Source: Malachius bipustulatus (lineage: Eukaryota > Arthropoda > Insecta > Coleoptera > Melyridae). Taken from it: DNA of 64,000 bases. The position numbers and the translations under genes are program-made. Below the pieces are notes generated by a model. It did no database searches. It was not told the origin of the DNA and saw nothing but the letters and a program-made list of their open reading frames with translations. Location: contig OU342637.1 in NCBI GenBank assembly GCA_910589415.1, forward strand, positions 30,782,162-30,846,161, given 5' to 3'. Position 1 is the first letter of the stretch. Each line of letters starts with the position of its first letter. Below, piece by piece: positions 9,925 to 39,570 of the stretch.

Positions 9925-11781
9925 AACTGTCAACTGATCAGAGACTGGAGGGTATCTAACGAACCCTCACTCTCTGATCACAGAATAATAGAATTCAAAA
10001 TGAGGGGACTCTGGCAAGAGAACACCCTCATTAGAAATCCAAGAAACACCGACTGGGACACATTTCACACCAGCCTAAGAGAAAATATAAAACAAACAAA
10101 TTCTAGAGTCAAAAACCATCTAGAATTAGAAGCAACATTAGAATCTCTCAACGGAGCGCTGAAATATTCATACGAATCCAGCTGCCCCATTAGAGAGAAA
10201 AGAAATTGTAGGAAAACTCCGTGGTGGAACGAACACCTATCCAAGCTCCGGGCAGAAGTTCGAAGGCTTTTCAATAAAGCCAAGCGCGATGGAGACTGGC
10301 AGGGCTACACCGCGGAACTGACAACCTACAATAAGGAAATCAGGAAAACTAAAAGGAAGAGCTTCAGGGACTTTTGCAGGGATATCACCTCAACACCTGA
10401 AGCATCCAGACTTCACAAAGCTTTAGCGAAAGGCATTGCCCAGGGAACAATGTCGCTCAGAAAACCTGATGGGAACTACACAGAAAATGAAGAGCAAAGA
10501 GCTCTACTTCTGCTAGAAACTCACTTTCCAGGCAGTGCACTGAAAGTAGGGAACGAGGATTCGTTCGAATCTGGTAAACCCACGAAAGAAGATTGGGAGG
10601 TCGCGAAAACCATCTGCACCTCCGAAAGACTGAAATGGGCAATTGGCACCTTTCAACCTTTCAAATCACCCGGGGTGGATGGCATATTCCCCGCTCTTCT
10701 GCAAAGAGGACTGGAGGATCTCATGCCACACCTGGTAAGAATATTCAGAAGCAGCCTGGCTATGGGATATATACCACAAGCCTGGAGAAAGGCGCAAGTC
10801 ATCTTTATTCCTAAGGCAGGAAGAAAGGACACCTCTCTCCCGAAGTCATTTAGACCCATCTGTCTTACCTCCTTCTTACTAAAGACGATGGAGAAAATCA
10901 TTGATAATCACATCAGAACGGAAACACTGAACAGGGGACCACTACACCCAAGCCAGCACGCATACAGAGCGGGCAGATCGACAGAGACCGCCCTGTATGA
11001 GCTGACAGGAAAGATTCAGGACACTCTGGAGTACAAGGAAACGGCCATTTGCGCCTTTCTGGACATAGAAGGGGCATTCGACAACACCTCTTGCGATGCT
11101 ATCAAGAAAGCCTTAACTAAAAAAGGCATAAACAGCACAACATCCCATTGGATTCAACAAATGCTGTCCACAAGAATAATTGGAACCAAAGTGGGCGATG
11201 ACACCATCCAGGTGAAAACAACAAAAGGATGCCCACAAGGAGGGGTGTTATCCCCCCTCCTATGGAGCCTGGTAGTAGACGAGCTCCTCGGGTTACTCAC
11301 CGAGAACGGCATTACCTGCATCGGGTATGCCGATGACATCGTCATAATGGCCAGAGGAAAATTTGAAGGAACACTCTGCGACATAGTACAGAGGGGGTTA
11401 AAGATAACCTTGAAATGGTGCCAGGAAATAGGACTCAACATCAATCCTACAAAAACTACACTGATACCATTCACAAGAAAAAACAAGCTTCCAAACCTCA
11501 AAACCATCGACTTGAATGGAGTCGAGTTAGAATGGAAGGAAGAAGTAAAATATCTGGGAATAACACTGGATAAGAAGCTAATGTGGAACAAGCACTTAAG
11601 TGCAACAGTAAGTAAGGCCACATCCGTACTCATGGTGTGCAGGAGAATGGCGGGGAATGCATGGGGTTGTAACCCATCCATTTTACGCTGGATGTACACC
11701 ATGCTAGTGAGACCCATCATCACATACGGAGCGGTCGTCTGGTACAAGAGAACCAAGCTAATAACAGCGAGGAAACACTAG
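9925..11781 (+). pseudogene. LINE ORF2, endonuclease tail and reverse transcriptase (truncated)
   Basis: The frame is open from the truncation point. The first ATG is at 10000, but the frame continues upstream through the endonuclease SDHR motif, so that ATG is not a real start. Counting from 10000, the RT palm has the first catalytic Asp in FLDIEGAFD (about residue 355), the CPQGGVLSPLLW block, and the YADD box at residues 443-446. All RT metal-binding residues are present. The frame ends at a TAG at 11779-11781, caused by a one-base shift at about 11745-11765. The next frame is already open at 11757 and continues the protein. In life this enzyme would copy the element's RNA at a nicked chromosomal target. 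This copy cannot do so because its 5' end is missing. Confidence 0.85.
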
Positions 11782-12950
11782 AGAAGATCCAGAGACTTGC
11801 ATGCCTCTGCATCACAGGAGCAATGAGAACATGCCCAACAGCAGCGTTGGAAGTAATTCTAGATCTCACACCACTGCACTTAGTGATTGAGAGAAGTGCC
11901 GCAGAGGCTCAACTCAGAATGTCAAGAATGGGGATCAGGGGGGGACTACGGACTGAGGGGAATCAACCCCTGAACATCTGTAAAAACCTCCTGATAATGC
12001 CAAAAGACAAAACTTTCAAGAAATTCAGCTTCAAGAGAAACTTCATCATGGAACTGTCTACGAAAGAAGAATGGAGCAACACATCCATTCACACTTTCAA
12101 AGAAGGTACAATAAGATGGTACACAGACGGCTCAAAGGCCACCGAGGGAACTGGGGCAGGAGTATATGGGCCAGGCACCAACTACTCCGAGCCGATGGGA
12201 ACATCCCCAAGCATACTTCAAGCGGAACTGTACGCAATAGAAGTATGCGCCCAAATAAACCTCGACAGAAACTATAAAAATAGGGAAATAGCAATACTGA
12301 CAGACAGTCAAGCAGCCATAAAGACGCTGAGCTCTCCTATCATCAGCTCAAAAATGGCATGGAACTGCCTACAAAAACTCAATAAACTAGGCAGAGAGAA
12401 CAAAATTCACCTCAAATGGATACCAGGACACACTGGGATTGAGGGAAACGAACGTGCCCACTCATTGGCAAGAAAAGGAGCATCGACACCCGTTATAGGA
12501 CCAGAACCATTCTGTAGCCTTGAAGACACGTTCTTCAAGGCAGAACTTCGTAAGGAAGAAGAAAAACTGAGAGAAATCCATTGGAATAACCTCTCAGGAT
12601 TGAGACAATCCAAGGAGCTCCTCGGGAACTTTAACCGAGAAAGGTCAAGGAAACTCCTGACCCTCAACAAAGGAAGTCTCAGAATGCTAACAGGATTCCT
12701 AACAGGTCATTGCAAGCTCAATGAACACCTGAGGAAACTTGGTATAGAAAAAGATGGCGTTTGCAGACTCTGCAGGGAAGAAAACGAGACTCCTCGTCAC
12801 CTATTGATGATGAACTGCGAAGCCCTAGAACGTGAAAGAAACGATGTTCTGGGCCAACACCAGCTCAACGGGGGGGCTTTGCCCGGCCTTGATCCTCTTC
12901 AAATCCTGAAATTCCTAAGGGAAACGGAGTTGGAGAGGCTGCTTCAATGA
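11763..12950 (+). pseudogene. LINE ORF2 continued, RNase H and Cys/His C-terminus
   Basis: This is the same protein in the +2 frame after the shift; the first ATG is at 11823 but is internal. Counting from 11823, the RNase H domain shows Asp 102 (YTDGSK), Glu 135 (QAELYA) and Asp 161 (LTDSQAA). The fourth metal-binding position, usually Asp in a GNExAD motif, is His here (GNERAHSLAR). After it comes CRLCREE...PRHLLMMNC, the C-terminal CCHC-like cluster common at the end of these ORF2 proteins. The stop at 12948-12950 is followed by about 75 bp of 3' UTR and the hexamer tail. Confidence 0.8.
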
Positions 12951-28065: not shown

Positions 28066-28388
28066 GTTATGTAAAAACGGCAAATAATCCATTTTTAAAT
28101 AAAATTCTCGAGTTACGTAATTAAAGCGCCACAATCTCAATCAAGAATTATATTTAATTTATAGCAAACTAGAATCAAATGTTTTGTTTCTTTTTTTGGG
28201 TTTAAAAATTATTATCGCGTTAATAGAGTAAAATCAAATTTTTGTTATGAATTTCGGGGTCCAGAAATCGTTCTATAAATTCTGAAAACCCTTACTTATC
28301 TCAAAATAACCCACACCAACAGATGAGGTGTCGTCCTATCTCGCTTCCACCAATGTTCGCCCGGCCGGTAGGAGCATTAACTGTCTTT
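28066..28388. other. Non-coding, no feature seen
   Basis: AT-rich sequence between the retroposon tail and the GA-rich tandem array. I see no open frame of note. Confidence 0.4.
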
Positions 28389-29190
28389 CTTTTTAGAGGG
28401 GGTTGAGGGAAAGAGAAGGGGGAGGGAGAAAGATAGTTTAAGTTACTTTTGCTGCGCTACCGTGCGCACTGTTATGAGGTGTTAAAGTTCATGAGAGTGG
28501 ACATCTATAATCTTAAAGAGAGAGAGAGAGAGAGGGGAGGGAGAGTGAAAGGGAGAAAGGATGGGGATGAAGGAGAGAGGGGGTAGAATGAGTGAGAATG
28601 GGGAAGGAGGAAAGGAGAGAGATAGTTACTTTAAGATGTTTGCTGCGCTACCGTGCGCGCTGTTCTGAGGTCTTAAAGATCACGAGTGTGGAAATACGTA
28701 ATCTTAAAGAGAGAGAGAGAGAGAGAGAAGAGCGGGAGTGTGGAAGGGAGAGAAAAGTGAGGGTTAGGGCGAGGTCTTTCTTTTAAGGGGGTTGAGGGAA
28801 AGAGAAGGGGGAGGGAGAAAGATAGTTTAAGTTACTTTTGCTGCGCTACCGTGCGCACTGTTATGAGGTGTTAAAGTTCAAGAGAGTGGGCATCTATAAT
28901 CTGAAAGAAAGAGAGAGGGGAGGGAGAGTGAAAGGAAGAAAGGATGGGGGTGAAGGAGAGAGGGGATGGAATGAGTGAGAAGGGGGAAGGAGGAAGGAGG
29001 AAGGGAGAGAGATAGTTACTTTAAGATGTTTGCTGCGCAACCGTGCGCGCTGTTCTGAGGTCTTAAAGTTCACGAGTGTGGATATACGTAATCTTAAAAA
29101 GAGAGAGAGAAGGGCGAGAGTGTGGAAGGGAGAGAAGGGTGAGTGAGAGAGATGGGGTGAGAGGAAGAAAGAGACAGTAAATCTCGATGT
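28389..29190. repeat. Higher-order GA-rich tandem repeat (ABAB, ~194-bp subunits)
   Basis: The core GCTGCGC(T/A)ACCGTGCGC occurs at 28451, 28642, 28840 and 29032, i.e. at intervals of 191, 198 and 192 bp. Subunits 1 and 3 share GCGCACTGTTATGAGGTGTT; subunits 2 and 4 share GCGCGCTGTTCTGAGGTCTT. The array is therefore two copies of a ~389-bp dimer. Between cores lie GAGA/GGGAGG purine runs of variable length. Frames through it (64 and 126 codons) are low-complexity shadows. Confidence 0.85.
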
Positions 29191-31827: not shown

Positions 31828-33180
31828 ATGTCCTTTAACATGGTTGTTAGGAAAAACAAGCGTATCCCTCTGATACCGGAAGTGAAAATTTTAATTAAAA
31901 ACGTTTTTGATGGTCTAAGAGAAAGAAATCTTAATTTATCCGTGACAGAAGCAGTGTTAATATGTAGCAGCTTAACAAAAATGGGGGAGAGCAGCGTGTA
32001 TAAAGCTATAAAAGAAGAATCTAGCTCTACTACCAAAGTAGAAACGCGTGGGAAAAAAAGGATCAGTCTTGACGAGGACACGAAAAGATCCATCCGTCGG
32101 AAAGTGCATTCCTTTTTCTTTGAAAATGAACTGCCAACTTTGGCAAAAATTTCAGCCGCTATTAATGGTGACGCCGATATGCCAAAATGTCAATGCGACT
32201 GCTAAAACGAACTCTCCATTCTATGAACTTCCGATATTTGAAAAGAAATCGAAAGAGTGTTCTTTTAGAAAAACCTGACATCGTTTTATGGCGGCGTAAC
32301 TACTTGCAACAAATTCGTCGATACAGGATGGAGAATCGCAAGATTTATATGGACGATTCAGAAGGTTTGGCAATACCTTAATGTCACCAGCAGTCGACAA
32401 CCTTTCGTGGAAGGTTTATCAACAGGGTTGAAAGCTCCTTCCGGTAAAGGAAGACGCTTAATAATCACGCACATTGGCAGTGATAGTGGTTTTGTAGACG
32501 TTGGTGCATTAATATTTGAATAAAAAAAAACAGGAAGACTATAACGAGGATATAGACGTTTTGAAGGATGGTTTGCTCAATTATACCAAAGTTGGAAGCA
32601 GGTTCTGTAGTGGTGATGGATAATGCACCATATCACAGTCGACGGCTAGAGCCATTGCCAACTTCAAGTTGGAGAAAAAGGGAAAATAATTGATTGGTTG
32701 AAAATGAAAGATATTGCCCACGAAGAAACCATGCTTAAAGTGCAATTATTGGACTTGACTCGTCTTCATAAGAAAAGTCTTGTAAAGTATGCTGTAGATG
32801 AATTGGCTCGGAAACATGGTATTATTATTCATCGTTTGCCTCCCTATCACTGTGAGTTGAACCCAATTGAGTTAATCTGGGCTCAAGTAAAATCTGAGGT
32901 AGCAAGGAAAAATAAAACCTTCAAGATGTCAGAAATAAAAATCTTATTAGATGAAGCATTAGGTCATGTGACATCTGAGAATTGGCAAAAATGTATCCAG
33001 CATATTTTTAAAGAAGAATCTCGTATGTGGGATCTGGATGTACGCGTTGAAGTAATTGTTGAACCCTTAAGTTTTGTTGTTGAAGAGAACAGTGATAGTG
33101 ATTCCGAAACTGATTGTGATTCAATAGTTCAACTGAAGTTTAGAAATAATCTTATTGGGTATGTACTTTTCTTATCATAA
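31828..33180 (+). pseudogene. Decayed DDE-type (IS630/Tc1-mariner-like) transposase gene
   Basis: The N-terminal part, from ATG 31828 to about 32205, is a basic HTH-like region (MSFNMVVRKNKRIPLIPEVK). The protein then continues in a second frame (32187-32381) with IYMDDSEG at the first catalytic Asp position, and in a third frame (about 32396-32521) with the GLSTGLKAPSGKGRRL block. The MDNAPYHSRR motif lies near 32615-32645. The last frame, to the stop at 33178-33180, has LPPYHCELNPIELIW with the third acidic residue and ends in a Ser/Asp-rich acidic tail. There are at least three frameshifts and several stops. I found no terminal inverted repeats, so it may be a decayed transposon core. The family assignment rests on the motif order. 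Confidence 0.7.
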
Positions 33181-33357: not shown

Positions 33358-33361
33358 ATTG
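33358..33361. repeat. ATTG target-site duplication (left)
   Basis: ATTG at 33358-33361 matches ATTG at 39567-39570 on the other side of the element. Four-base duplications are usual for gypsy elements. Confidence 0.8.
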
Positions 33362-33575
33362 TGTTAGGGGAGTTTAGAAAAAGTCAAATAGACTCAAATT
33401 AAGCCAAACAATGAATTTTAATGAACAATGTAATAATAAGTAATGACAATTATTCGTATTGAAATATATCAATGCTTCACGGTGAGCGTGTCGCGACAGA
33501 GTGATTCGACCCGGTCTTATCTACCAGTCAGTTAGTTTTTTGCAGACCAGTCGAATTTATGAGCTGTTTCTAACA
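33362..33575 (-). repeat. 3' LTR of the gypsy element
   Basis: 214 bp, TGTTAGGGGAG...TTTCTAACA, identical by eye to 39353-39566. The purine tract expected just before it on the minus strand is weak (AGGATGGCCGAA at about 33576-33587). Confidence 0.95.
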
Positions 33576-33862
33576 TTCGGCCATCCTGTAGATCCAATTC
33601 TGTCCCAGGATTGGCGTTAATCTGTATCTGAAATAATTCGTCAAAATAAGCAACACGGACAAGAATCATAATAATATGAATTACGGCACTTCCTTTTGTA
33701 TAAGTTCAGCTTGAAATATCCATGTAGAAGTGAATCAACCCAGTCTAGCTCATCTTCATTTCATGGATTCATTATTATTCGCTTTCATCATATTATTATT
33801 ATTCTTCCAGTTTTTTCCAGTAACATAAAATGCAACAGCAACTACTAATAATTGATTTATTA
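33576..33862 (-). other. Gypsy 3' untranslated segment next to the 3' LTR
   Basis: Non-coding sequence between the hairpin array and the 3' LTR. No open frame or envelope-like sequence is seen. Confidence 0.6.
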
Positions 33863-34709
33863 TTGGTCGTATACCAAACAATAAACATAAAATATCCAGT
33901 TGTTAGTCGTGTACTAACCATAAGCTCGTCAAATTGTTAGTCGTATACTAACCAATAAGTTCGTCAAATTGTTAGTCGTATACTAACCAATAAGCTCGTC
34001 AAATTGTTAGTCGTATACTAACCGTTCATCCATCAATAAAGGTGTTAGTCGTATACTAACCGTAAGTTAATCGATCAATCTGTTAGTCGTATACTAACCG
34101 TTTCTGAATCGATCAAGGTGTTAGCCGTATGCTAACCGTAAGTTAAGCGATCAATCTGTTAGTCGTATACTAACCGTATTTGAATTGATCGAGGTGTTAG
34201 CCGTATGCCAACCTTAAGTTAATCGATCAATCTGTTAGTCGTTTACTAACCGTATTTGAATTGATCAAGGTGTTAGCCGTATGCTAACCGTAAGTTAAGC
34301 GATCAATATGTTAGTCGTATACTAACCGTATTTGAATTGATCGAGGTGTTAGCCGTATGCCAACCTTAAGTTAATCGATCAATCTGTTAGTCGTTTACTA
34401 ACCGTATTTGAATTGATCAAGGTGTTAGCCGTATGCTAACCGTAAGTTAAGCGATCAATATGTTAGTCGTATACTAACCGTACTTGGATTGATCAAGGTG
34501 TTAGCCGTATGCTAACCGTAAAGTTAAGCGATCAATCTGTTAGTCGTATACTAACCGTACTTGGATTGATCAAGGTGTTAGCCGTATGCTAACCGTAAAG
34601 TTAAGCGATCAATCTGTTAGTCGTATACTAACCGTACTTGGATTGATCAAGGTGTTAGCCGTATGCTAACCGTAAAGTTAAGCGATCAATCTGTTAGTCG
34701 TATACTAAC
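33863..34709 (-). repeat. Array of ~22 hairpin-forming repeats in the gypsy 3' region
   Basis: Units of 17 bp, mostly GTTAGTCGTATACTAAC or GTTAGCCGTATGCTAAC, recur 22 times from 33902 to 34709 with a mean period of about 38 bp. A diverged unit at 33863-33877 (TTGGT-CGTAT-ACCAA) precedes them and a broken one at 34731 follows. Each unit is a 6-bp stem with a 5-base loop. From about 34100 on, T-A and C-G stem types alternate, giving a ~77-bp higher-order repeat. The C-G type hairpin is bracketed by ATTGATC and GATCAAT, which can form an outer stem. Paired changes keep the stems; see the findings. Confidence 0.9.
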
Positions 34710-34805
34710 CGTATTTGGATTGATCAAAGTGTTAGTCGTTTCATATTTTATGATCGTTTTGTCAAGTCAACTACATTTATAAGCTGAGTAGACCGTTGTC
34801 CACAA

Positions 34806-34950
34806 CTAAAACTTATTCTCACCTCTTAAAACGACCCATGGCTTAATCTTGTCAACCGCCATCACGGTTTTAGATTTCGAACGTCCTTCTCGTAGGTCTT
34901 CAACCTCATAGCGATCATCCGGTAAAACATTTGTAACTCTTGCTTATAAA
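34806..34950 (-). pseudogene. Integrase C-terminal end in shifted frame
   Basis: After a frameshift near 34935-34950 the minus strand reads LPDDRYEVEDL...AVDKIKPWV and ends with TAG at 34806-34808. This is the usual C-terminal tail of gypsy integrases. The frame open to 34862 is the shifted one and does not give the natural end. Confidence 0.65.
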
Positions 34951-35515
34951 TCTTTGCGGCAGCTCGAGCCTTATTGTCGAACCTCTCCTTTTGCATCTTC
35001 TGGTCTTCGGTAATTCGCTGCTTAATAGAACCTCTCAGTTCAGCTAAATCGATTCTATCCAAGCTCACTTGAATTGCGCTCAAAATGTTTGACTCAGCAA
35101 CATGACATGGTTTGTATCCGGCCAATGCTTCAAGTGGCGAGACACCAATACTTTTATTGTAAGTGCAGTTCATAGCGCTCTGTATAGATTTAATGGGCTT
35201 ATCCCATTCGTCTTCAGGGTTATCTGCAGATGTAGCTGCTAAAGCATGTAAGATAGTACCGTTGTACCTCTCGCATTGCCCATTGGCACGGGGAGTTGCT
35301 ACAGCATTCAAAGTATGCTTTATACCGTAAGTCTTACAGAAGGTCTCAAAAGTTTGTGACGTAAATGCTGTACCTCTATCAGTCACTACCCTTTTCGCTA
35401 CCCCAAATAAATAAAACATGTCGAGCAACATTTTTGTTACATATCGTGTTTTCGTACTTTTTACTGCTTCGATTATCACATATTTTGTGAACGCATCAAC
35501 AATGACCAGTAAATA
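34862..35515 (-). pseudogene. Gypsy integrase, catalytic core (downstream of an in-frame stop)
   Basis: It is in the same frame as the upstream pol part but separated from it by a TAA at 35516-35518. The core continues after the stop with YLLVIVDAFTKY, so the break lies inside the catalytic domain. Counting from the first internal ATG (35479), Asp 34 lies in VVTDRGTAF and Glu 70 in GQCERYNG, with 35 residues between them, the DD35E spacing of retroviral-type integrases. The first Asp is in the upstream part. Integrase joins the element's DNA ends to the chromosome in the nucleus. Confidence 0.85.
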
Positions 35516-37260
35516 TTATTTATTGTCCCTTCGGCTAGTCACAAAAGGTCCTACGTGATCCATGTGTAACATATAGAAAGGTGTAGCTACCTTTTCTATA
35601 GGGTGTAACGACCCTTGTTTCTTTCCAGGACGAGGTTTGTAATATTGGCAGTTCAAACATGAAGATACATACTTCTTGACAAATTTTCTCATTCCTGTAA
35701 ACCAGTAGTTTTCCTCCATTTTTCTCAAGGTTTTCTCTAGACCAAAATGTCCCATATTGTCGTGACAAAGTCTACAAATCTGCCATCGAACGTTACGAGG
35801 TACTAACCAAGCAGTTTTATTATTCTCGAGTCTTCGATAGACGATTCCCTTTTTCAAACAATATTTTTCAAAATACTGTTTGGTTTCATTATTTCTGACA
35901 TCATCTTTCAAAATATTTAGTATCATGGTAACTTGTTCATCTTGTAACTGAACAGCATGCAACCACTCGCCTTCTGTTATGTCTACTTGTAGAACATCAA
36001 CCACCAGCTCCCGGCTTAGAGCATCCACATGAGACATTTGCGTTCCAGGACGATGTTCAATCGAAAAGTTAAAATCTTGGACTTCTAACCACCATCGGCC
36101 TACACGAGGGAGCAAATCCTTTTTACTAAATGTTGTTCTTAATGCACTACAGTCCGTGATAACCTTGAACCTCATTCCCAATAGGTAAGTTCGAAAATGT
36201 CTTAACGAGAGCACGACAGCTAGAGTCTCGAGTTCGTAAGAGTGAAACTTGCGTTGCTCTGGAGACGTTTGCTTGCTGTAGTAAGCAACAACGACACGTA
36301 GGCCATCACTTTTAATTTGGATGAGCATTGCACCAAAACCCAATGAACTGGCATCTGAATGGAGTTCCGTTACTAAAGATGGGTCAAAAATAGCTAAGAC
36401 AGGTTTGGTAGTTAGAATTTCTTTAACTTTCTGAACAGCGTCATCCTGTTCTTTAGACCAAATCCAAGGGTTGGATTTCTTTGTAAGTCGTGTTAGTGGT
36501 TCAACAACTCGAGCGTAATCTTTAATAAACTTACGGAAATAACCTGACAGGCCTAGAAATTGTCGAATTTCTTTGACGTTACTAGGGCTCCTCATCATTA
36601 ATACAGCTTCAACTTTTTTGGTTCCCGGTTTCACGCCCTCAGAACTAATTTCTCTTCCCAAGTAATCAATTTGCTTTTTGAAAAATGCACATTTGCTTAA
36701 TTTCAGAGTTAGCTTATGTTCACGCAATTTGTAAAGGACGGTTTCGAGTCGTGATAGTCCTTCGTCAACTGATTCACATGGAATGATTATGTCATCAATA
36801 TAGGGAAAAGCTATGTTATTTTTCAGTTTTCCTAGAACGTTGTTTATAAGTTTTTGAAAAATACTGGGTGAATTCGTCAGGCCGAAAGGCATTCTTAGAA
36901 ATTCATAATGTGATTCCGGTGTCACGAATGCCGTTTTCTCAACAGAATCTGGTGCCATAGGGACTTGATAAAAACCCGAGGCTAAATATAACGTAATATA
37001 AAATTGATTATTGCCTCCTAACTTGTCAATTTGTTCATCGATTAAAGGGAGTGGATATTTATCCTTAACTGTGATCGCGTTTAATTTTCGGTAATCAACG
37101 CACATCCTGTAGTCATTTGTTTTCTTCTTCACTAGGAGAATGGGACTAGCATAAGGGGAGCTGGATTCCCTAATAATGTTATTTTGTAAAAGTTCGTCAA
37201 TAATTTTCGACAATATCGCTTTTTCTTGTACGGCCATTCGGTACGGTCTATAAACAACAG
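35516..37260 (-). pseudogene. Gypsy pol: reverse transcriptase, RNase H, start of integrase
   Basis: The first ATG is at 37237, but the same frame reads SVVYRPYRMAVQ just upstream, so translation entered from the protease side. RT: residue 84 is Tyr in ITLYLASGFY, where the family has the first metal-binding Asp; the YIDD box (146-149) is intact. RNase H: Asp 295 (LHSDASS), Glu 337 region (YELETLAV), Asp 362 (ITDCSAL) and Asp 405 (SHVDALSR) are present. Integrase zinc finger: His 492, His 497, Cys 527, Cys 530. First integrase Asp: 560 in HMDHVGPF. The frame stops at TAA 35516-35518. The loss of the RT Asp should inactivate DNA synthesis by this copy. Confidence 0.9.
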
Positions 37261-37674
37261 AGGTTCTTCACTAGTGCATTTAATATGCATTTCAATGCCA
37301 TCAGTTTTTCCTAATTCACTTATTGAAAATGCAAGGCAATCTCGGTATTGCTGAAGTAAATTAAATGTTATCGTTTTCTGATCGGGTGAGAGATCCTTGT
37401 CAAAATTAATCGAATTGAGATCAAAAACAGAATTGTTATAATTTTCTTCAATAACTTCAATTTCATTTATATCTAGAGAAGGTAAATTCCTTAATATTAG
37501 CTTATCTTTAGTTTTTGTAATTACTACGTTTTCATTGCAGAGAAAATCACGTGCGATTATAAGATCATGACTCAAGTATTTATCATCAAGGACGATAGCA
37601 ATAACATTAACAACCGCTTCTTCGATTATTATTTTCAGATCGCATTTTTGGTTACTCACTGTCATATTACCCAT
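37132..37674 (-). pseudogene. Gypsy pol: protease C-terminal part to RT linker (shifted frame)
   Basis: The frame reads MGNMTVSNQKCDLKI... and HDLIIARDFLCN, the flap and C-terminal half of a retropepsin, then a linker with EEPLL. At about 37255-37262 a one-base shift moves the correct frame to the RT part. At its upstream edge, near 37672, another one-base difference separates it from the protease active-site part. The protease would cleave the Gag and Pol polyproteins in the particle. Confidence 0.75.
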
Positions 37675-37838
37675 GAAACATTTTTAGAGAAACAGGCTTA
37701 TTATTTTCTTGAATTGAAACTCTAGCATTGAATGCCGTTGATCGCTTGATTATCGTACAGTCGCTACCGCTATCCAGCAAACATTTAATCTTGAAATTAT
37801 TTATTTGAGCAGTTTTAATAAAAATATTTGAATGGCTA
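37675..37838 (-). pseudogene. Gypsy protease, active-site part
   Basis: The minus strand reads KCLLDSGSDCTII at about 37755-37790, the DSG active-site motif of retropepsins. It is cut off on its upstream side by the MITE at 37839 and shifted relative to the downstream half at about 37672. The region is too short to stand as a long open frame. Confidence 0.75.
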
Positions 37839-38247
37839 AGTGCAGAAAGGGAAGTACTAACATTTTAACGAAAAATGAGTTACACATGCTTTCATATAGT
37901 TTCGACCTAGCCCGATCGTTTGGCGCAGAAAAGAAAGTCATGCGATGCGATTTAGTTGTTCTTATAGGCTACGCAGAAAATCCCGTTTGATGCAGAAAGG
38001 GAAGTACTACAACAACACTTTCCTTTCTGCTCTTAATAGTTTTAAATTTGCGAGATTTTAAAAATAATAATGGCACAGATAAGGTAACACACAAAGTGAA
38101 ACTTGCTCTTCTTCATAATAATTATTTATTTACATGGCACAATTAATTAATAAAAAAAATGCGTCGATGCAGATTAAGAGCAGTGCCTACCCAGTTTATA
38201 TTGATTTTCTCAGAACTAATATTTTGAAGTACTTCCCTTTCTGCACT
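37839..38247. mobile_element. 409-bp MITE in the gypsy element, TA duplication
   Basis: The inverted ends AGTGCAGAAAGGGAAGTACT lie at 37839 and (inverse) 38228-38247 and are flanked by TA at 37837-37838 and 38248-38249. A second pair of the same motif, TGCAGAAAGGGAAGTACTA at 37991 and CTTTCCTTTCTGC at about 38018-38030, forms a central hairpin. The element therefore has four copies of its end motif, two in each direction. It has no coding region. The host family is unclear; the TA duplication is consistent with Tc1/mariner-type mobilisation. Confidence 0.8.
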
Positions 38248-39230
38248 TAGACGTTCATTTGTTGTACTGGTACTACTTGGATTTCATTTACACGTTTCGT
38301 TTTGTAACCAAATTTATTAGTACAAAATTCTTGAGTATGCCCTAATCGGTTGCATCCCTTACATTCAACCCTTGGCTTCTGACAATCCCGTACTCGATGA
38401 TCTCCACCACAATTGAAACAGGATATTTTCTTGGACACATTCGTAGGACGAGAGTCTCCAGGTTTGAAACTTCGTTTTGAAAATTTACTTTGGGATCGAG
38501 CATTATTTAGATAGCCAGGAACATTGAAATTTGATTTCGGATTTGAAGTGGAAGGTAGGTATTTCGTTGACGACACATTACTGAGATAATTTGCTAGATT
38601 ACCAATTGTTTGAAAATTTGCCGCCCTTGCGGGTAAAGCAATTTTGTTATCATTAATCCCTTCAATTACAATAATACATTCTTCGGGAATTGCCAAATTT
38701 AAACGATTTAATTTTGCTGCCTTTTCATAACAATAGTCGCCCAAGTTTTGACCAGGAACAGGGTTATAGTTTGCAGCCTCAACCAGTAATTTACCAAATC
38801 GAATCGGCGTCGGAAAGTTCTGAATAAGTTGTTGTTTCATGTCCAGCCAATTTAAGCCAAGATTTGGTAGTGAGTCATACCATTTACGTGCATTACCTCG
38901 TAGTCGATTTGTGGCTAACTTAAATACAGTTTCATCTGACCATCTATGCAAAATGGCTAGTTCGTCTATTTTGCGAACCCAGTCGGTTGCACTTTGGGAA
39001 CTTTCCATGCCAGGTTCGAATGCGGGTATTACCGTTTCATCTAAATGCGTATTGGTACTGGAATGGGTACTTACAATTTGCTGCAACGCCGCCAATTCCC
39101 TTTTTAACTCACTTATCGTACTACTTGTATCATCATCCCTTACTGTTCTCGGGCTACGGGAGTGCCTGCTCCTTGATCGATGGGAGTGCTGAGATTGCGA
39201 GCGGTGGCCCCTTTTGCCTGATCGCCCCAT
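38247..39230 (-). CDS. gag: Gypsy Gag (capsid and nucleocapsid), 327 aa
   Basis: The ATG at 39228-39230 starts MGRSGKRGHRSQSQHSHRSR, an Arg/Ser-rich start. A helical capsid-like region follows, with WVRKIDEL and LRGNARKWYDSL typical of gypsy Gag. Two zinc knuckles lie near the C-terminus: CFNCGGDHRVRDC (CX2CX3HX4C) and CKGCNRLGHTQEFC (CX2CX4HX4C). The stop TAA is formed by TA of the target duplication plus the first base of the MITE. Without the MITE a TAG would stand at the same codon, so the Gag end is unchanged by the insertion. The protease frame begins in another register just downstream, which suggests Gag-Pol frameshifting in the family. Gag packages the element's RNA in cytoplasmic particles. 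Confidence 0.9.
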   Translation of the reverse strand: MGRSGKRGHRSQSQHSHRSRSRHSRSPRTVRDDDTSSTISELKRELAALQQIVSTHSSTNTHLDETVIPAFEPGMESSQSATDWVRKIDELAILHRWSDETVFKLATNRLRGNARKWYDSLPNLGLNWLDMKQQLIQNFPTPIRFGKLLVEAANYNPVPGQNLGDYCYEKAAKLNRLNLAIPEECIIVIEGINDNKIALPARAANFQTIGNLANYLSNVSSTKYLPSTSNPKSNFNVPGYLNNARSQSKFSKRSFKPGDSRPTNVSKKISCFNCGGDHRVRDCQKPRVECKGCNRLGHTQEFCTNKFGYKTKRVNEIQVVPVQQMNV

Positions 39231-39337
39231 TATTTGTCACTGCACTTTAGTTTAAAAAAACGAATAAACTGTTACTTTTATTATTATTAATGAACAAAAG
39301 AACTCAAAATTAGGGTGAAGCGTACGTCTTGGGGTGT

Positions 39338-39350: not shown

Positions 39351-39352
39351 TT

Positions 39353-39566
39353 TGTTAGGGGAGTTTAGAAAAAGTCAAATAGACTCAAATTAAGCCAAAC
39401 AATGAATTTTAATGAACAATGTAATAATAAGTAATGACAATTATTCGTATTGAAATATATCAATGCTTCACGGTGAGCGTGTCGCGACAGAGTGATTCGA
39501 CCCGGTCTTATCTACCAGTCAGTTAGTTTTTTGCAGACCAGTCGAATTTATGAGCTGTTTCTAACA
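39353..39566 (-). repeat. 5' LTR of the gypsy element
   Basis: 214 bp, identical by eye to 33362-33575. It begins TG and ends CA in both orientations. Confidence 0.95.
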
Positions 39567-39570
39567 ATTG
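39567..39570. repeat. ATTG target-site duplication (right)
   Basis: It matches 33358-33361. Confidence 0.8.

Follow-up and report, generated by a model that had tools for sequence, protein, structure and literature searches.

In Drosophila gypsy, the Su(Hw) insulator consists of short DNA sites that bind protein, arrayed within the 5' untranslated region. To our knowledge, little is settled about the way in which animal LTR retrotransposons single out their own RNA for export and packaging. Tandem arrays downstream of pol are already known from plants: in the available passages on the plant Ty3/gypsy element Retand, family-specific arrays are placed between pol and the 3' LTR, in about half of the young elements (PMC11963269). 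The same passages contain no word beginning with "hairpin", "stem" or "secondary structure" and report no hairpins. Cis-acting RNA is described for simple retroviruses in the consulted part of another article: a stem-loop of the MPMV CTE binds NXF1, RSV has direct repeats regarded as a putative transport element, and one title cited there links the 3' untranslated region to a packaging defect (PMC3856414). Xist A-repeats are, in the part consulted, tandem repeats with loop structures in the RNA and are required for its function (PMC8786324). The literature listings consulted show no insect case of a hairpin array after pol, and the passages give no account of the function of tandem arrays in this position.

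The window, the whole stretch of 64,000 nucleotides analysed, contains one Ty3/gypsy element bounded by both LTRs, on the minus strand. The parts of the element are as follows.

33361..33576, minus strand: 3' LTR, TGTTAG...CTAACA, 216 bp (blastn, window against itself).
33862..33878, minus strand: diverged edge unit ATTGGT-CGTAT-ACCAAA (plus-strand reading), outermost pair broken.
33902..34709, minus strand: array of 22 hairpin units, located between the integrase stop and the 3' LTR.
34731..34747, minus strand: half unit GTTAGTCGTTT, right arm lost, at the pol-side edge of the array.
34862..35515, minus strand: integrase core frame, PF00665 (Pfam; frame listing).
35516..37267, minus strand: frame with RT, RNase H and the integrase zinc-binding domain, PF00078, PF17919, PF17917 and PF17921 (Pfam).
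38247..39236, minus strand: gag-like frame (frame listing), with two zinc-knuckle-like (CCHC-like) motifs read by eye.
39352..39567, minus strand: 5' LTR, 216 bp (blastn, window against itself).

The LTRs are 100% identical across 214 aligned bp (3' LTR against 39353-39566; blastn, window against itself), and a 4-bp target duplication, ATTG, lies outside each (flanks read by eye). Two LTRs with TG...CA ends, a short target duplication and the domain order RT, RNase H, integrase (Pfam) are those of Ty3/gypsy. The gypsy 3' region on the minus strand that had been proposed from the letters alone was borne out by the identical LTRs, RT, RNase H and integrase. The pol of this copy is split into several frames, and the stop of the integrase frame is the final coding stop ahead of the array. 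Stop-to-stop frames of at least 60 aa are absent from both strands of 33373-34862 (integrase stop to 3' LTR). The gag-like frame has no match in Pfam; its best relative is a Tenebrio molitor protein (52% identity over 88%). Among the pol relatives listed, the species named are all insects; together with the Tenebrio match this makes an insect host probable, perhaps a beetle. Rfam covariance models give no match at the gathering score in the window. A AGGATGGCCGAATG-like motif, perhaps the plus-strand primer site, is present directly ahead of the LTR start in the window (33577-33590) and six of the 24 relatives sampled (L067, L072, L073, L076, L078, L083) have one ahead of what appears to be the LTR start.

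Other features of the window are a stretch of about 430 bp between gag and pol that resembles a small DNA transposon (37829-38257; 30-bp inverted ends, 93%), a frame with a DDE_3 (transposase-like) match close to the 3' LTR (32650-33180), two LINE-like frames matching RT, RNase H and zf-RVT (10000-12950) and a 191-bp tandem repeat of 3.7 copies with a purine-rich plus strand (28383-29110).

Units of the array read GTTAG[T/C]-CGTAT-[A/G]CTAAC on the plus strand, spaced 34-39 bp. In sense RNA they read GUUAGU-AUACG-ACUAAC or GUUAGC-AUACG-GCUAAC, with a 6-bp stem and a 5-nt loop. A pattern search with up to 3 mismatches gave 22 matches, all inside the array, against 0.13 expected, in agreement with the 22 units of the original prediction. 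Fourteen units are of the T-A type (loops CGTAT in 11, CGTTT in 2, CGTGT in 1, the last two being the loop variants already reported) and 8 of the C-G type (6 GCTAAC, 2 GCCAAC). As first described, GCCAAC units have an A-C mismatch on the plus strand but a G·U pair in sense, the minus strand. Strict alternation of the two types, reported for the array as a whole, sets in from 34082 onwards, after six initial units that are without exception T-A. Because the alternating types form a higher-order repeat of 76 bp, the C-G units do not count as independent. The diverged edge unit was also present as reported, with pair 4 G-C rather than A-U in sense, but its stem is paired only in part, the outermost pair being broken. 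The half unit GTTAGTCGTTT has the identical form in 21 of 23 array loci.

TGTTAG begins both unit and LTR, and the right arm contains CTAAC, so the units might be decoy or extra LTR ends bound by the element's integrase. The match is only 6 bp, 2 of them the customary TG/CA, and in two relatives (L073, L103) the LTRs seem to begin TGTTA while their array arms differ; this explanation is barely credible.

Across the 544-Mb genome the exact core has 346 occurrences, and the reversed control pattern has none. The 23 array loci account for 345 of these cores; the other, at C2:48379860, is inside the L016 element, flanked by its LTRs. The core is private to this element. The array search gave 29 matches, reduced to 23 arrays (L008-L029, L031); L030 and L032-L036 are extra pieces of elements already counted. 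Copies with coding gaps (L011-L013, L022 with L024, L027) still hold 11-22 units. Viral contigs, tried as a source of relatives, gave 7 loci with one core match each, taken as chance, and no pol relatives were confirmed in them.

A neutral minisatellite with a chance palindrome, grown by tandem duplication and unequal exchange, would be an alternative, and a rather improbable one. Paired changes would then be due to chance or to templated arm repair, and identity of cores to recent spread or conversion. Consistent with it are the array size, from 6 to 26 units between copies, the position of the C-G type inside one higher-order repeat, and the divergence of the LTR pairs, at 0-4 of about 216 sites across the 14 pairs compared (the 2 differences counted for the window pair are cut ends). 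By this divergence the LTR pairs, and with them the window element, are judged young. Against neutral growth, an array lies not more than 1.3 kb downstream of 14 of the 14 listed pol copies at least 95% identical (from 75 scored of 5434 pol candidates).

The pattern of variation also argues against neutral growth. Candidate 17-mers in the 23 loci number 466. Exact T-A forms make up 235 of them and exact C-G forms 110; the rest are loop variants, edge or half units, loop-expanded or off-register matches and one-sided stem changes. Alternative states per column, with units grouped by spacer class, are 8/48 in the stem, 3/20 in the loop and 46/81 in the spacer, for 378 of 413 units, the edge, loop-expanded and odd-length ones being set aside. 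The difference from the spacer has p=0.0004 for the stem and p=0.00005 for the core. Per column, the core thus varies less than one third as much as the spacer within classes. Spacers diverge widely between classes, and the same core is retained despite this (57 distinct spacers against 14 cores). Constraint is equally strong in loop and stem, so the sequence itself appears to be read, beyond pairing alone. Retention of the hairpins while the intervening DNA changes suggests that the units are working binding sites, probably in RNA.

Pairing of two genomic RNAs by self-complementary units, with no protein docked, is highly improbable. The units are nearly perfect palindromes, and in the consulted part of one article short palindromes at the 5' end of yeast Ty3 RNA are reported to hold the RNA dimer, a precedent for such pairing (PMC11381356). 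The sites described here are 3'-terminal and about 20 in number, and their non-palindromic loop is conserved as much as the stem.

The main alternative, though an unlikely one, is that the units are palindromic sites in DNA bound by a dimeric protein (insulator, enhancer or silencer), comparable to the Su(Hw) sites of Drosophila gypsy. Constraint on the whole 17-bp core, with loop conservation equal to that of the stem, would be expected of such sites too, as would regular spacing and perfect dyads. The centre, CGTNT, is asymmetric yet conserved, which is unfavourable to DNA sites. Also unfavourable are the confinement of the exact core to one element in the genome and the few units (L010, L014-L016) in which the loop is 2-3 bases longer with both arms intact.

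Paired changes, the main argument of the original prediction, amount to only two events, one affecting pair 6 and the other, in the edge unit, pair 4. Across the 23 arrays pair 6 has two paired states only and no half-changed form among the 466 candidate 17-mers, and C-G units are restricted to one spacer class; a single origin followed by duplication is the simplest account of both. The C-G type therefore looks like one paired change that was then spread by duplication, and paired changes were dropped as the main proof of structure. Symmetric half-sites in DNA would yield paired changes as well. Other stem changes across copies are mostly one-sided. Of the one-sided events, 6 produce G·U in the sense strand: GCCAAC, ACCAAC (twice, in different settings), GTCAGT, GCTAGT and ATTAGT at the edge. 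One, GCCAAT, produces it in antisense instead, and 2 are transversions. This lean to sense G·U, equal to antisense A·C, is unfavourable to DNA sites but not significant against spacer changes in the matching classes (11:7:14), and the tally, the author's own event count, is too small to decide. Unit types that each arose once and spread by duplication with no further covariation, or mostly unpaired stem changes in other copies, had been named in advance as counting against selection for structure, and the copies seem to follow that forecast.

Part of the argument from pairing stood. In the 14 distinct cores that form the complete, in-register subset of 22 distinct 17-mers (half, loop-expanded and off-register forms dropped), pair 4 in sense is A-U in 6, G·U in 4, G-C in 2 and other in 2, and pair 6 is U-A in 11 and C-G in 3. 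Alignment of other copies for covariation, the check proposed with the original prediction, gave a divided result on these cores: cells changed on both sides number 5 against 1.8 in shuffles (4/500 as high), the covariation score is equalled by 36/500 shuffles, and the count of pairs changed on both sides by 250/500. Among 65 distinct aligned units, 15 of 341 variable column pairs pass a loose covariation filter; of these 15, hairpin pair 6 alone switches between Watson-Crick pairs, in 65/65 rows and without G·U.

In folding predictions on the 14 cores with right arms redealt (arm-swap), matched arms fold better, with P=0.004 in sense and 0.07 in antisense. Simple shuffles give z=-7.8 in sense and -2.3 in antisense, and tandem-aware shuffles of the 76-mer z=-2.75 and -2.32. 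Hairpins have a mean predicted probability, sense against antisense, of 0.62 and 0.34 at unlimited span, 0.56 and 0.33 at a 100-nt span, and 0.73 and 0.84 at a 40-nt span. At unlimited span all 19 distinct arrays, themselves mutually related, have a higher value in sense than in antisense. Such predictions would favour RNA over DNA action. Confidence in an RNA dock is held down because the strand difference depends on the span and because antisense is equal in several families.

The search in related gypsy families, also proposed at the outset, had a mixed outcome. Arrays beginning -50 to +300 nt from the end of the pol frame are present in 11 of 24 sampled 3' regions (L067-L090; some of the same family, three with early stops), against 2 of 24 for a control interval 1000-1350 nt downstream. 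The closest relative (65%, L067) has no array in its sampled 3' region. In L085 the hairpin is GRC-UAAAG-GYC, with pair 2 A-U in 7 and G-C in 6 of 13 distinct rows. Its family was enlarged to 5 copies by four more (L106-L109, from 12 other places found). Across 64 matches in the family, pair 1 is G-C in 59 and unpaired in 5; pair 2 is A-U in 33, G-C in 28, G·U in 1 and other in 2 (seemingly out of register); pair 3 is C-G in 57, U·G in 2 and unpaired in 5. The arms switch while the loop is mostly kept, which is unfavourable to DNA sites.

Five further arrays were picked by eye, so their arm-swap p values are biased downwards; 4 of 5 reach p<0.05. Values in sense and antisense are, respectively, <0.0005 and 0.0025 (L085), 0.017-0.031 and 0.001-0.003 (L103), 0.014 and 0.029 (L087), 0.025 and 0.008 (L070), and 0.25 and 0.12 (L080). 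Arm-swap by pairing score in the enlarged L085 family (19/20 distinct 11-mers) gives P=0.0004 in sense and 0.0006 in antisense. DNA sites are favoured by the antisense results: significant also in L085, alone and with its enlarged family, L087, L103 and L070; at least as strong as sense in L103, L070 and L080; and nearly equal to sense in the L085 family. Action as RNA, as proposed in the original prediction, is thus favoured by the constraint, the pair 4 series, the sense arm-swap and the covariation in L085, and weakened by antisense results about equal or better in most other families.

Hairpins as a general trait of arrays after pol were rejected as unsupported by folding energy, covariation scans and blind arm-swap. 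Folding energy of these arrays is mostly no better than that of shuffled units, in line with a neutral minisatellite. None of the 17 informative arrays in the blind arm-swap, controls among them, reaches P<0.05; the window array was one of the 17, and in it the program chose the outer 3 bp only. An initial covariation scan was marred by junk end units and gave no general hairpin support. In the cleaned scan (nine arrays; L076, L094-L096 and second arrays left out), 3/21 hairpin pairs against 27/856 others covary (Fisher p=0.03), with 1/18 against 18/652 in controls; without the window family the enrichment falls to p=0.15, again in line with neutral growth. Evidence for hairpin arrays across families is suggestive only. 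It is doubtful that many gypsy families of this insect carry their own hairpin array directly after the pol stop, as a general but overlooked device, with a family-specific loop as an address by which Gag or a host factor would select the element's own RNA for export and packaging. In such a device the loop would be retained and the arms would drift through paired changes and G·U intermediates.

Further repeats were observed in the sampled regions. L103 (sense 120-451) has six diverged hairpin units with GAGA kept within the loop, arms very unlike and some G·U in sense. In L070 (424-1292) two arms of 430 nt form an inverted repeat; they are 97% complementary and separated by 9 nt. L076 (1762-1957) has five 39-bp units with nested hairpins, the last changed from TGCC-TAT-GGCA to CGCC-TAT-GGCG (paired change); as a 3' untranslated array it was rejected, since it lies about 800 bp beyond the LTR-start motif.

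The explanation given most weight, tentatively and at somewhat less than an even chance, is a cis-acting RNA hairpin array that docks a protein, Gag or a host factor, for export or packaging. It is favoured because of the position of the array, its presence beside all 14 listed pol copies, the low variation of both loop and stem, and this family's preference for sense. About 20 hairpins between the pol stop and the 3' LTR of the genomic RNA would form a multivalent dock, and the docked protein would read both the loop (AUACG in sense) and the stem. The likeliest partner would be the zinc knuckles of the element's own Gag, or a host export or RNA-binding protein; the likeliest use would be selection of full-length RNA for export and packaging. 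We infer RNA action, a protein partner and a function for the array on these grounds. A private repeated hairpin beside every listed pol copy is a compact target for study at the RNA level and could give tandem arrays after pol a role open to testing.

Compared with known systems, the array resembles the Su(Hw) insulator in being an array of short sites within a gypsy element. It differs in its location after the integrase, rather than in the 5' untranslated region, and in consisting of hairpins. Xist A-repeats, which belong to a mammalian noncoding RNA, are alike only as tandem looped repeats, and no relation is claimed (PMC8786324, consulted in part). As in Retand, so far as the available passages describe it, a tandem array lies between pol and the 3' LTR; the window element differs in having no antisense frame (TRP28) of at least 60 aa in this stretch (PMC11963269). 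The CTE and the RSV direct repeats, as described in the consulted part of that article, are cis-acting RNA but not sets of about 20 small, near-identical hairpins (PMC3856414); the position of the array in the 3' untranslated stretch of the genomic RNA would suit such an element, its structure there is a predicted one, and by this analogy the function of the array may be export or packaging.
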